DNA of 56,332 nucleotides, taken from positions 1-56,332 of the forward strand of contig CAIWTU010000117.1 in assembly GCA_903915655.1 (NCBI GenBank), written 5' to 3'. The notes under the pieces are model-generated. The model worked only from the letters and a program-made list of their open reading frames with translations. It did no database searches and was not told the origin of the DNA. Every line of letters starts with the position of its first letter. Within the stretch, counting starts at the first letter, position 1. This document shows positions 1 to 3,984 of the stretch, one piece after another. The translations under genes were made by a program, and so were the position numbers. This stretch comes from an uncultured Geobacter sp. (lineage in GTDB: Bacteria; Desulfobacterota; Desulfuromonadia; Geobacterales; Geobacteraceae).

Positions 1-96
1 AATATCGCGAAGAAATGGACCCTGCCGATCAGAGACTGGAAAGCTGCCATGAATCGTTTTTCTATTCTTTTTGAAGACAGACTGCCGAATCTTTAA
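1..96 (+). pseudogene. IS256-family (mutator-type) transposase, C-terminal end only
   Basis: Frame 1 is open from the first base and encodes about 31 residues before TAA at 94-96. The residues KKWTLPIRDW and a terminal FEDRL are the characteristic end of IS256/mutator transposases. Only the tail lies in the window, so it may be an intact gene cut by the window edge rather than a broken one. About 15 bases after the stop lies a sequence typical of the terminal inverted repeat of these elements (about 110-142). Identification rests on recall of the family C-terminus. Confidence 0.7.
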
Positions 97-109
97 AACC
101 GAAACCCAG

Positions 110-142
110 TACCATTTACACAAAACTATTTACAGGCCCTTG
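110..142. repeat. Probable right terminal inverted repeat of the IS256-like element
   Basis: The bases catttacacaaaactattta, about 14 bases after the transposase stop, resemble the acacaaaa-type terminal repeat that ends IS256-family elements. The partner repeat lies outside the window, so neither the exact boundary nor a target duplication can be seen. Confidence 0.4.
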
Positions 143-315: not shown

Positions 316-2457
316 CTAAACAGGCAGTTCGCCTACTTCAATCAAAAGACGTTTCCCGCTCGGGGTCCGCGTCATAAGGTTTGTCAATCTGCGGCATAAC
401 TGTTCCTGGGCAAGCCGATGTCTTGGCTGTTGCAGGGCTTCCAGCCTAACCGTTACTGCTGTTTTGGATGACTTGATCCAGCCGTGGCAATTGGTGATTG
501 CATAAAACAAATCTACCAACTCGTTTTTATCGTTAAAGTGCGGACTTAACCACTCAATCATCTGCTTTCTGGCATTCCAGACCGATATCGTCACAAAATC
601 AAACAGATATTTACCCTCATTGTCAATCCGTTTGAAGGATTTGTAATCCTCCAGTGTCGATACGTCCACCCGTGGCTCAAGCTGCTTTTTCTCTTCTCTT
701 AGCTTTGACAACACTGTCTCGTTTTCAGCAATAGTGCGCTGAAGCTTTTCTCTGATACTGTTTTGGCGGGGAACTCCATCGCCATTTAGCGCTTCCCTGG
801 CTTTTGACAGTTTTCGGTAAAGCTTGCCAAGTTCCGTCTTAATCCCTCCGATAAGAGTTTCTTTTGCTTTGATCTCCGGATTAGCTATGTCCTGACTGTC
901 ACTCTTAACTACCTGGAAGCCTGGATGATAGTCCAAAGGATGGCGATCCTTCAGATGCTTGAAGGTATTTTCCGATCTCCCCCAGCAACTAAGAATGGTA
1001 CGGGCGCATTCTTCTGTGGTCATGTTAGCAGCACCTGTCCATGCGAGTCCACATGTTTTGCGGTTGCTGGTTTTGTCCCACAGATAAATCCGCCGTAGAG
1101 TTATACCCTTCTTTCGTTGCTCTCTCTTCGTTTCATTTTCGTCGGATCCTGCATCTGATTCATTTTTGGCGGCAACCATGATCTTTTCGCCTTCAAAGAC
1201 CGCATACTCCTTGCCATTCACTTCAAACACGGAGCTGAATTGACTGTCATCAACGACCGCAAGTTTTATTGGGTCTACATGCTTTTCCCAGGCCACAAAG
1301 GGGGTTTTACTATCAATCAGGCTCTCAAAAAAATCAAAACCATCCCCCTCACAATCAAATACCTGTACGGGTTGTTGGGGGATATCATCCTGCCACTTCT
1401 TACCCAAGGTGACAATATGAGTACGCAAGTCCCCTTTGCCTTCCTGTATGTCAAAATCCACTATGCGACCACTGCCGTCACAGGTCACCATGGCGGTCCT
1501 GCCCGGTACGGGCATACGCCTTTGTGTGCTGTAGGCAGAATGAACACGATGTTTGCCACTGTAGGGCAAAAGGTGGCCATCGGTAAACCAGACCGAAAAT
1601 CCCACCAGGCCGCATTGAATCTGATGCCGGAAGTAATCTGTAAGTAAAGCGCCGCTGGCTTTCAGGTTTGCAGCATTGTAAAACCACTCCCAAATCGTGG
1701 GCTTGGAAACGATACGTTTTATACCGAGCAGCACTCCTGCTTCTCTCCCCCGAATATGCTTCAGTTGTTCGATAGAACGGGTATTGGTTGCTGCCATCAA
1801 AACAAAAACCATTAAGATCCGATACGCTTCGCCAAAGTATCCCATTATCAAGCGGAGCCAATCAGATTGACTGATCAGTGTTATCAGATATAGAAATACT
1901 CCAGCATAGCGGGTCTTTTCCCAATCGTGTTCTTCGGCAAAAAGGAGATCTTGATTTGCTACCTCTGCTATCTTGCCCGTATTCCCGGCAAGAGAGAGCG
2001 GTAATAACTCCTGCTGTGCTAAGATTTCTTCTCGTTCTTTGGCACGTAGTTCCGCTACTTTCTGCGCTTTGTTGCCATTTGACAGCTCTTCCTTGTGCAA
2101 CTGGCACTCCTTGCGGCGATCCTTGCTTTCGCTGACCCTGTACCCTTGAATCAAACCCTCTTTGCCAAAGTGAGTGCGAATATCGAGGTGATTATCTATA
2201 GTCTGGCGACTTACACCAAGTGCTTTGGCAAGATATGATTTGCTTGCGCCCAAATCTACTGTATCGACAATAAAGAGCCGCTTGGCAACACGATCATTTA
2301 AATCAACATTCCTTACCAAAACACCTCGATGGTAAAGCATCACTCTTGAGGGTTTTTTACCTTGTGCGCCAAAAACTTCAAGAAACAGAATTGAGCCTAA
2401 GGGGATTTGCTTGTTCTTGTTTTCTTGAGCGTCATCAAAGAGAGCTTCAGATTCCAT
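316..2457 (-). CDS. Large DDE-type transposase of an unassigned family
   Basis: A 713-residue protein with an N-terminal helix-turn-helix around residues 70-92 (SYLAKALGVSRQTIDNH) and a likely RNase H-fold catalytic core. Candidate catalytic residues are D293 (FTDGH), D368 (VFDCEGDGF) and E496 in GRSENTFKHL, the usual R-x-E-N-x-F-K surround of the last catalytic Glu in many transposases. A charged, probably coiled-coil stretch lies near residues 560-610. The start ATG at 2457 is preceded by a weak purine-rich stretch. I could not define terminal inverted repeats: TTGGACAT occurs at both ends, but not in a collinear arrangement with other end matches. The neighbours are other mobile-element remnants. 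The transposase call is fairly secure from the motif spacing; the IS family is not assigned. Confidence 0.65.
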   Translation of the reverse strand: MESEALFDDAQENKNKQIPLGSILFLEVFGAQGKKPSRVMLYHRGVLVRNVDLNDRVAKRLFIVDTVDLGASKSYLAKALGVSRQTIDNHLDIRTHFGKEGLIQGYRVSESKDRRKECQLHKEELSNGNKAQKVAELRAKEREEILAQQELLPLSLAGNTGKIAEVANQDLLFAEEHDWEKTRYAGVFLYLITLISQSDWLRLIMGYFGEAYRILMVFVLMAATNTRSIEQLKHIRGREAGVLLGIKRIVSKPTIWEWFYNAANLKASGALLTDYFRHQIQCGLVGFSVWFTDGHLLPYSGKHRVHSAYSTQRRMPVPGRTAMVTCDGSGRIVDFDIQEGKGDLRTHIVTLGKKWQDDIPQQPVQVFDCEGDGFDFFESLIDSKTPFVAWEKHVDPIKLAVVDDSQFSSVFEVNGKEYAVFEGEKIMVAAKNESDAGSDENETKREQRKKGITLRRIYLWDKTSNRKTCGLAWTGAANMTTEECARTILSCWGRSENTFKHLKDRHPLDYHPGFQVVKSDSQDIANPEIKAKETLIGGIKTELGKLYRKLSKAREALNGDGVPRQNSIREKLQRTIAENETVLSKLREEKKQLEPRVDVSTLEDYKSFKRIDNEGKYLFDFVTISVWNARKQMIEWLSPHFNDKNELVDLFYAITNCHGWIKSSKTAVTVRLEALQQPRHRLAQEQLCRRLTNLMTRTPSGKRLLIEVGELPV

Positions 2458-2676: not shown

Positions 2677-3114
2677 TTAAATCGCATCTCTTCCTCGTTC
2701 ATTTGTTCGTATCTTCACGATGTCATCAACCGTTGACACGAAAATCTTCCCATCGCCCGTATTACCGGTATGTGCGAATTTCTGAATCAGATTGACGACT
2801 TTATCAACCATCTCGTCATTTACAACAACTTCTAGTTGAATGCGCGGGATGAACTCCACCATTTCATAGACTATTTTGTCTGTTGCATTCTTGGCCCTGC
2901 CTTTAGGATACAGCCCTGCCTTGATTCTGCCCGCCTCGCGTATTCCTTTCTCCTCACAGAGCGCTTTCAAGTCGCCGTTGTTCTGCAAAGAGAATTGCAC
3001 TGTTTGTCGGAGATTGAAGATCTTTTCCGCAGCTAAAGCCTTGTCACTACATGTTAAAATCCATATGGCCAGGAACAGGAAGACCGTTCCCGTTAAAGAA
3101 AAATTTCGTACCAA
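2677..3114 (-). pseudogene. In-frame chimera: TolC/CzcC-type efflux protein N-terminus joined to PII-type regulator C-terminus
   Basis: The 145-residue frame has two unrelated halves. Residues 1 to about 70 carry a signal peptide (cleavage near ALAA) and the opening helix of an outer-membrane efflux protein, including LRQTVQFSLQNNGDLKAL and REAGRIKAGLYP. Residues about 72-145 match the second half of a GlnB/PII-like protein: EFIPRIQLEVVVNDEMVDKV, then TGNTGDGKIFV and a terminal IRTNERGRDAI. In Geobacter-type genomes czcC, czcB, czcA and a PII-like gene often sit in one operon. The simplest inference is one deletion from early czcC to mid-PII that removed the pump and happened to keep frame. 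Half a PII with a secretion signal is unlikely to work as a PII trimer. The upstream gene at 3246-3611 is the usual first gene of such operons. Confidence 0.7.
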
Positions 3115-3245: not shown

Positions 3246-3611
3246 CTAGACGAGGATATGCGGGGGTATGAACTTGGAAAGGTATACTTCGGGTAAATGC
3301 TTAAATGGATCAGACGTGATCATATCCAAAACGATGGGTTTATAATAAAGCTGAAACTGTTGAATGGTCAGAGGCGCATGACAAGCACAGTTCATACAGG
3401 TATCGCAACAATCTAAATCTTTATGTTCTTCGAGAGGGGAACCAGGACAGTGGTGGGATACGGAATTTTCCAAAGACGAAGCTTGATCACTTGCCGATAT
3501 CACATGACTTTGCTTGGCATGAGCATTTTCGTGGACGCCATTGATCGTGACGGTCAGCATGACCACTAGAATAATCAACGAAAGAAATTTCAGGCGGATT
3601 AATTTTCGCAT
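3246..3611 (-). CDS. Small exported Cys/His-rich protein, first gene of a metal-efflux operon remnant
   Basis: A 121-residue protein with a hydrophobic N-terminal signal (about residues 8-25) and a central metal-binding-looking stretch (HHCPGSP, then DCCDTCMNCACHAP). The C-terminus is conserved-looking (LPEVYLSKFIPPHIL). Similar small proteins commonly precede CusC/CzcC genes in Geobacter relatives, so a role in periplasmic metal binding is inferred, not shown. It lies 131 bases upstream of the TolC-PII chimera on the same strand. A good promoter (3625-3653) ends only about 14 bases before the ATG and no clear ribosome-binding site is visible, so the message may be nearly leaderless. Confidence 0.65.
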   Translation of the reverse strand: MRKLIRLKFLSLIILVVMLTVTINGVHENAHAKQSHVISASDQASSLENSVSHHCPGSPLEEHKDLDCCDTCMNCACHAPLTIQQFQLYYKPIVLDMITSDPFKHLPEVYLSKFIPPHILV

Positions 3612-3624
3612 AAATTATTTTTGA

Positions 3625-3653
3625 ATTATGTCCGGCTCTTCCCAAACTGTCAA
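3625..3653 (-). promoter_or_regulatory. Sigma-70-type promoter of the Cys/His-rich protein gene
   Basis: On the minus strand TTGACA (3648-3653), a 17-base spacer and CATAAT (3625-3630) make a near-consensus promoter just upstream of the ATG at 3611. The implied 5' leader is only several bases. Confidence 0.55.
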
Positions 3654-3984
3654 GAGCTTATTAAATATTACAACTACGGATTTTGAACGATGTAAACCAT
3701 TAGATATAATTAAGAAAACATTCTTGAATACGCCACTAAACAGTTGAATCGTCGAGGACGGCAAACTCTGGAAAATTTTTGATAAGCTCTTTTCCCTGCC
3801 TTGCCGCGACAGTTATCCCTGGTTCGGAGATATTGTGACGTCGTGCGGTGTCGACTCTGCGATGGCCGGATAGGTAGGCCATGTGGCATACGATACTTTG
3901 CGCGTTCACCAAGCTTAGCGCCCGCGTACGCTAGATCAATTCCCTTTCCCTTCCGTCACATCAAACGTTATCACATCATCTCAA
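3654..3984. other. Gap without a recognised gene
   Basis: AT-rich at first, then about 52% GC. It contains only short open frames that resemble nothing I know. It lies between the metal-efflux remnant and an IS4-like relic, so it probably contains decayed mobile DNA, but no motif supports a more specific call. Confidence 0.3.

Follow-up and report, generated by a model that had tools for sequence, protein, structure and literature searches.

A fused open frame and its surroundings

The minus strand of the window (the whole stretch of DNA analysed, 56,332 nucleotides) carries at positions 2677-3114 one uninterrupted open frame, which starts with TTG and encodes 145 amino acids followed by a stop. 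Residues 1-70 correspond to the start of czcC, and residues 71-145 to residues 39-113 of a 113-residue PII protein that is encoded behind czcA in relatives. The features are listed below (numbers preceded by G and L denote genomes and loci, respectively).

2677-3114, minus strand: fused open frame, CzcC residues 1-70 followed by PII residues 39-113 (open frame, Pfam, protein search, codon comparison)
2905-3114, minus strand: CzcC part, a signal-peptide-like start and about 41 more outer-membrane efflux residues (61-65% identity to CzcC starts of relatives)
2680-2904, minus strand: PII part, i.e. the T-loop region, beta3-alpha2-beta4 and the C-terminus, with PII residues 1-38 lost (at most 88% identity, Pfam P-II)
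2902-2907, minus strand: junction CCT/AAA, where AA (2904-2903) fits both parents (codon comparison, blastn boundaries)
3246-3611, minus strand: intact gene for a small Cys/His-rich protein of 121 amino acids, the gene before czcC in relatives (72.6% amino acid identity to G001)
3250-3320, minus strand: putative second recombination zone, G001-like upstream and G008/G107/G020-like downstream (identity per 50 columns)
3625-3653, minus strand: promoter-like site, TTGACA-17-CATAAT, 11 of 12 consensus bases (consensus match only)

The first-pass annotation had described the frame as two halves of different origin joined without a frame change, and had proposed that each be searched separately. In a protein search of 117 genomes (the window's own and 116 other relatives) the CzcC start and the PII part were each matched alone. 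The best match of the PII part was to G105 (residues 69-145, 88% identity, E 1.1e-40), while the first 71 residues, among the matches listed, were 61-65% identical to seven sites spread over five relatives, three in G018 and one each in G004, G008, G107 and G020 (best E 6.5e-25); the open frame there has 439-471 codons at six sites and 151 codons at one, which is near a contig end. Judged by sequence similarity, both parent assignments are far beyond chance. Moreover, the Pfam P-II profile matched residues 71-139 with 54.6 bits (cut-off 25); intact relatives span profile positions 1-102 and the fusion only 36-102 of 102, yet it scores above the gathering threshold. Residues 1-74 gave no match to Pfam or NCBIfam, and thus no outer membrane efflux domain, a domain that the intact CzcC proteins of G008 and G001 carry (192 and 164 bits). 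With residues 1-38 missing, the fusion does not have the complete beta-alpha-beta-beta-alpha-beta fold of a PII protein, and with 70 residues of CzcC it does not have the efflux domain over approximately 430 residues that marks CzcC/TolC-type proteins. Together with the codon comparison given below, these matches bear out the different origin of the two halves and their joining in one frame.

The small Cys/His-rich gene upstream was matched in 23 of 29 loci; its product is signal-peptide-like and stands at the head of metal operons, and it has no Pfam family and no meaningful NCBIfam match. Ahead of it lies the promoter-like site. A promoter scan gave 4 sites of any quality where 3.5 were expected, so the site count carries no meaning; in G001, hexamers and spacing are identical upstream of the same small gene. 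An inverted repeat, GCTCTT...AAGAGC (3635-3660, minus strand), overlaps the promoter-like site, is by eye partly kept in G001, and is a possible operator.

The operon in relatives, the junction and a mosaic

The first-pass annotation had assumed an ancestral order czcC-czcB-czcA-PII and had called for a comparison of the locus. Among the 29 loci compared (26 distinct places) intact operons of this kind were found, and their gene order and domains agree with that assumption. Specifically, L055 (G008), L058 (G001, a relative of the same genus), L066 (G002) and L033 have the order small protein-CzcC-CzcB-CzcA-PII, followed by a lipoprotein-like gene. The products comprise 121-125 (small protein), 428-432 (CzcC), 402-425 (CzcB), 1033-1034 (CzcA) and 113 (PII) amino acids, with the PII protein of L055 given as 121 amino acids from a start farther away. 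In L055 and L058 the products carry, in order, the Pfam OEP, HlyD-type, ACR_tran and P-II domains. The CzcA of L055 passes the NCBIfam CusA/CzcA heavy-metal model (1151 bits, cut-off 701); its CzcC is below all NCBIfam cut-offs and its CzcB passes the general RND adaptor family only and not the CzcB model, and the letters B and C are therefore assigned from position in the operon and from the general domain.

At 14 distinct places (17 rows) both parts lie on one strand with the points corresponding to the junction 5521-5826 nt apart; the PII is at least 70% identical in 11 of these, where the spacing is 5598-5826 nt. The other 12 places include some with one part only or cut by contig ends; in L033, L037 and L040 the small gene and PII are present and no CzcC start was matched by the query. 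Tandem PII-type genes were seen in L036 (8001-8587), L038 (6152-6738) and L067 (3049-3635); they share 78-82% and 40-44% identity with the query part and, in the first two loci, follow a czcC start at a distance of about 5.7 kb.

Codon by codon, the window tracks CzcC through AAG GCA GGG CTG TAT CCT AA and PII from AAA GGC AGG GCC AAG AAT onward. At this point CzcC relatives have CCN AAY CCN and PII genes of the same type GGY AAR plus a variable codon; since these share nothing more, the overlap is limited to the two bases AA. Independent blastn matches to the two parents meet at 2903/2904. The start signals of the fusion, TTG and a GGAGGT box, are those of intact czcC genes: the box precedes the czcC start in every one of 18 relative rows (two of which are one place), and 17 of them have TTG at the aligned start, which is extrapolated without gaps in rows whose match began at residue 3-9. 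In the remaining row (L038), which comes from a gapped match, the TTG is further on.

The single deletion proposed in the first-pass annotation is an incomplete picture, as it missed the second recombination zone near 3250-3320. Per 50-column block, identity to G001 is 72-92% between about 3660 and about 3320 of the window, with G008, G107 and G020 at 60% or below; from about 3267 down to the junction G008, G107 and G020 are closer than G001, except in one 8-column block. The C-terminus of the small protein is FIPPHILV, shared with G008 and G107, whereas G001 has FIPPQNHA. Because the identity switches in this zone and the C-terminus is G008/G107-like, an exchange between two operon types probably took place on top of the deletion. 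The crossover zone falls inside the conserved 3' end of the small gene. Three contigs of relatives (G107:C58, G107:C20 and G018:C24) begin within this gene or some 110 bases ahead of it, which suggests repeated sequence at the small gene.

Probable loss of the operon and fate of the joined frame

The genome that holds the window is a 3.36 Mb draft of 171 contigs, rated 100% complete, with eight ACR_tran proteins. A cognate CzcA was not found in it (best match 37% identical), and neither was anything more than 24% identical to CzcC beyond residue 71. The operon DNA of G001 matched this genome only at the two flanks of the deletion and in two short stretches from the far end of the G001 sequence. 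An intact PII of the fusion's type is likewise absent, the other P-II places in the genome being 50% or 47% identical or giving a weak 26-bit match. As the operon remainder was not found in the genome, a deletion is favoured over a misassembly, and the absent pump genes together with the spacing at the 14 places support the multi-kilobase deletion that the first-pass annotation had put forward. Its length would probably be 5.6-5.8 kb.

In our judgement the fused frame is most probably the relic of a recent in-frame deletion and not a new protein. In the ancestral state a metal-efflux operon would have encoded a small secreted-type protein, CzcC, CzcB, CzcA and PII. Illegitimate recombination at the 2-base overlap would then have taken out czcB and czcA in full, together with PII codons 1-38 and about five sixths of czcC.

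As part of this reading, we favour a deletion that stayed inside a single operon. A larger deletion between two neighbouring czc operons, one providing the czcC start and the other PII, is a variant compatible with a relic. The CzcC start and the PII part of the fusion have their nearest counterparts in different relatives, which counts against a single-operon origin; the locus is already a mosaic near the small gene, some relatives (G018, G107) have several such operons, and the CzcC start of the same-genus relative G001 is only 48% identical to that of the window. Against this, a czcC start and a PII of these kinds (53-66% and 70-84%, respectively) stand together in single operons of G008, G011 and G029, and we regard the two-operon variant as rather unlikely.

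In the relic itself, the promoter-like site, the ribosome-binding site and the conserved TTG start have been retained. Transcription of the frame and synthesis of its product may therefore continue, and the product may be sent to the Sec system, so that both expression and export are plausible. By eye, its N-terminus has a hydrophobic stretch and an ALA-AE type site, and a low-confidence model places a helix at residues 7-25. Lacking the initial half of the PII fold and almost the whole of CzcC, the product would probably neither fold nor work, and be degraded. PII residues 1-38, lost in the fusion, form beta1-alpha1-beta2 in the AlphaFold model of the intact G001 PII that served as control (pLDDT 71.5, pTM 0.65; 14 rows). 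The fusion reached a mean pLDDT of 49.2 and a pTM of 0.24 from an alignment of both families with only 21 rows; in these models, of a kind little informative on truncated domains, its product gets no confident fold.

The fusion was found in a single genome. Both parts in one open frame were seen neither in the 116 other relatives, among the matches listed, nor in 140 other genomes of the order (a set that overlaps the relatives). No fused homologue was present in 10 loci of a genome-contig collection, in 21 plasmid records (0 with 80% coverage) or among viral contigs (0), and a degenerate junction pattern occurred in 1 of 58 genomes, i.e. the window's own. Homologues of the full 145-residue protein, named in the first-pass annotation as the sign of a real family, were thus looked for in relatives, order, plasmids and viral contigs, and none was found. 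One candidate, G031:C78 (residues 15-145, 38%, one TGA), turned out to be an ordinary GlnB-type PII gene with stops in frame upstream, and matches in G045, G096 and G114 that start at residues 50, 57 or 66 are taken as PII-only extensions.

To the window branch we gave a separate omega in a codon model of the PII part (75 codons, 28 rows) and the CzcC part (69 codons, 9 rows). Background branch lengths were estimated a single time, with one omega and at most 25 iterations, and kept fixed thereafter; L053, which is the window itself, and L028, which runs into a contig end, were removed beforehand. For the PII part the best grid value was about 0.08 versus 0.104 for the background (95% range about 0.02-0.3; lnL drop 7.6 at omega 1), and for the CzcC part about 0.35 versus 0.328 (range about 0.15-0.85, read off the grid; lnL drop 2.7 at omega 1). 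Neither part thus gave a signal of decay on the window's branch, and the deletion is therefore recent relative to the split from the sampled relatives, or selection continued; the data fit either. If the frame has been neutral since the deletion, the PII result limits that time to about 1/5-1/4 of the branch, and the CzcC result sets hardly any limit. In the PII part none of 30 columns invariant among 27 other sequences is altered, and compared with 14 intact PII proteins the kept part departs at 2 of 40 invariant positions (V77 and Y81; fusion L109 and F113). Of the 24 CzcC columns without variation among 8 other starts, 2 are altered in the fusion (A38T, E40Q); scored likewise by leave-one-out, single intact CzcC relatives show 0-8 altered columns. 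Around the window the branching of the CzcC tree is not resolved (support 0.006); in the PII tree the window clusters with eight others (0.868).

These data bear on the reading that selection has retained the joined protein, which would then be an exported PII derivative or a decoy under the old operon promoter. The frame is unbroken by stop or frameshift and its PII part is as conserved as in intact genes, as continued selection would give, and this counts against a relic; omega near background for both parts and the unaltered invariant PII columns point the same way. However, the conservation may predate the fusion, because the window branch may be mostly pre-deletion time, and the single carrier genome, the lack of a confident fold and the altered CzcC and PII positions argue against retention, the CzcC changes being within the span of intact relatives. 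The first-pass annotation had left open a relic or a protein under selection and had proposed dN/dS as a check: omega, now estimated on the window branch, cannot separate a recent deletion from selection, and although the sequence fits either and does not decide, the relic is favoured by the absence of a confident fold and the single carrier. Retention by selection is, in our judgement, very unlikely, and the same holds for a newborn gene in the sense of an exported protein of two thirds of PII and a CzcC leader, maintained by selection under the old metal-operon promoter.

An assembly error linking two unrelated stretches is likewise highly improbable: many of the draft's contigs end in shared repeat, but the joint shares only 2 bases, too few for an assembler overlap, and the missing pieces are nowhere else in an assembly rated complete. 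A real protein family is dismissed, since only the window's own match spans both parts in one frame among the matches listed.

Two elements lie between the contig start and the fused frame. The sequence of window positions 1-141, at the start of the contig, occurs at 16 other places in the genome, 12 of them contig starts, and is probably the terminus of a multi-copy element at which the assembly breaks. Positions 316-2457 (minus strand) encode a 713-amino acid transposase-like protein (Pfam Transposase_29, 35.4 bits, cut-off 27), present as a single copy in its own genome and not found in 96 other relatives (E 1e-30) or in plasmids; a search for a terminal inverted repeat gave nothing convincing, only one weak 19-base candidate. 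An IS-adjacent deletion was considered and rejected: this gene did not directly make the joint, because it lies beyond the stop of the fused frame and not at the junction.

Comparison with known systems

Read as a deletion relic, the locus is a clean case in which the loss of an operon has left an in-frame chimera whose start signals are intact. It illustrates the origin of fused frames and the way in which a family search may label a relic as a P-II protein; were the protein kept, this would be gene birth caught in the act. Among the literature matches listed, titles and abstract openings gave no CzcC-PII fusion, which is a weak negative.

According to one report, PII-NG proteins are encoded together with a CzcABC pump, the G. 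sulfurreducens PII-NG gene GSU2134 lies beside czcABC (GSU2135-2137), and this counterpart is raised under cobalt stress (PMC7726332). The C-terminal 75 residues of the fusion are of the PII type found behind czcA, the likeness to GSU2134 being one of the neighbourhood described there. In contrast to PII-NG, the fusion lacks the first 38 residues and has a signal-peptide-like start added, and it is not encoded with its pump genes, no cognate czcA having been found in the genome.

With the CzcC-type outer-membrane factor of heavy-metal RND pumps the fusion shares the start codon, ribosome-binding site, signal-peptide-like start and approximately 41 further residues; it differs in being without the remaining approximately 360 residues and without a match to the efflux domain. 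Deletion-derived chimeric pseudogenes form when an internal deletion joins gene ends at a tiny overlap. The fusion resembles these in that two gene ends of one operon are joined at such an overlap, and differs from them in having stayed in frame, for which there was about one chance in three.
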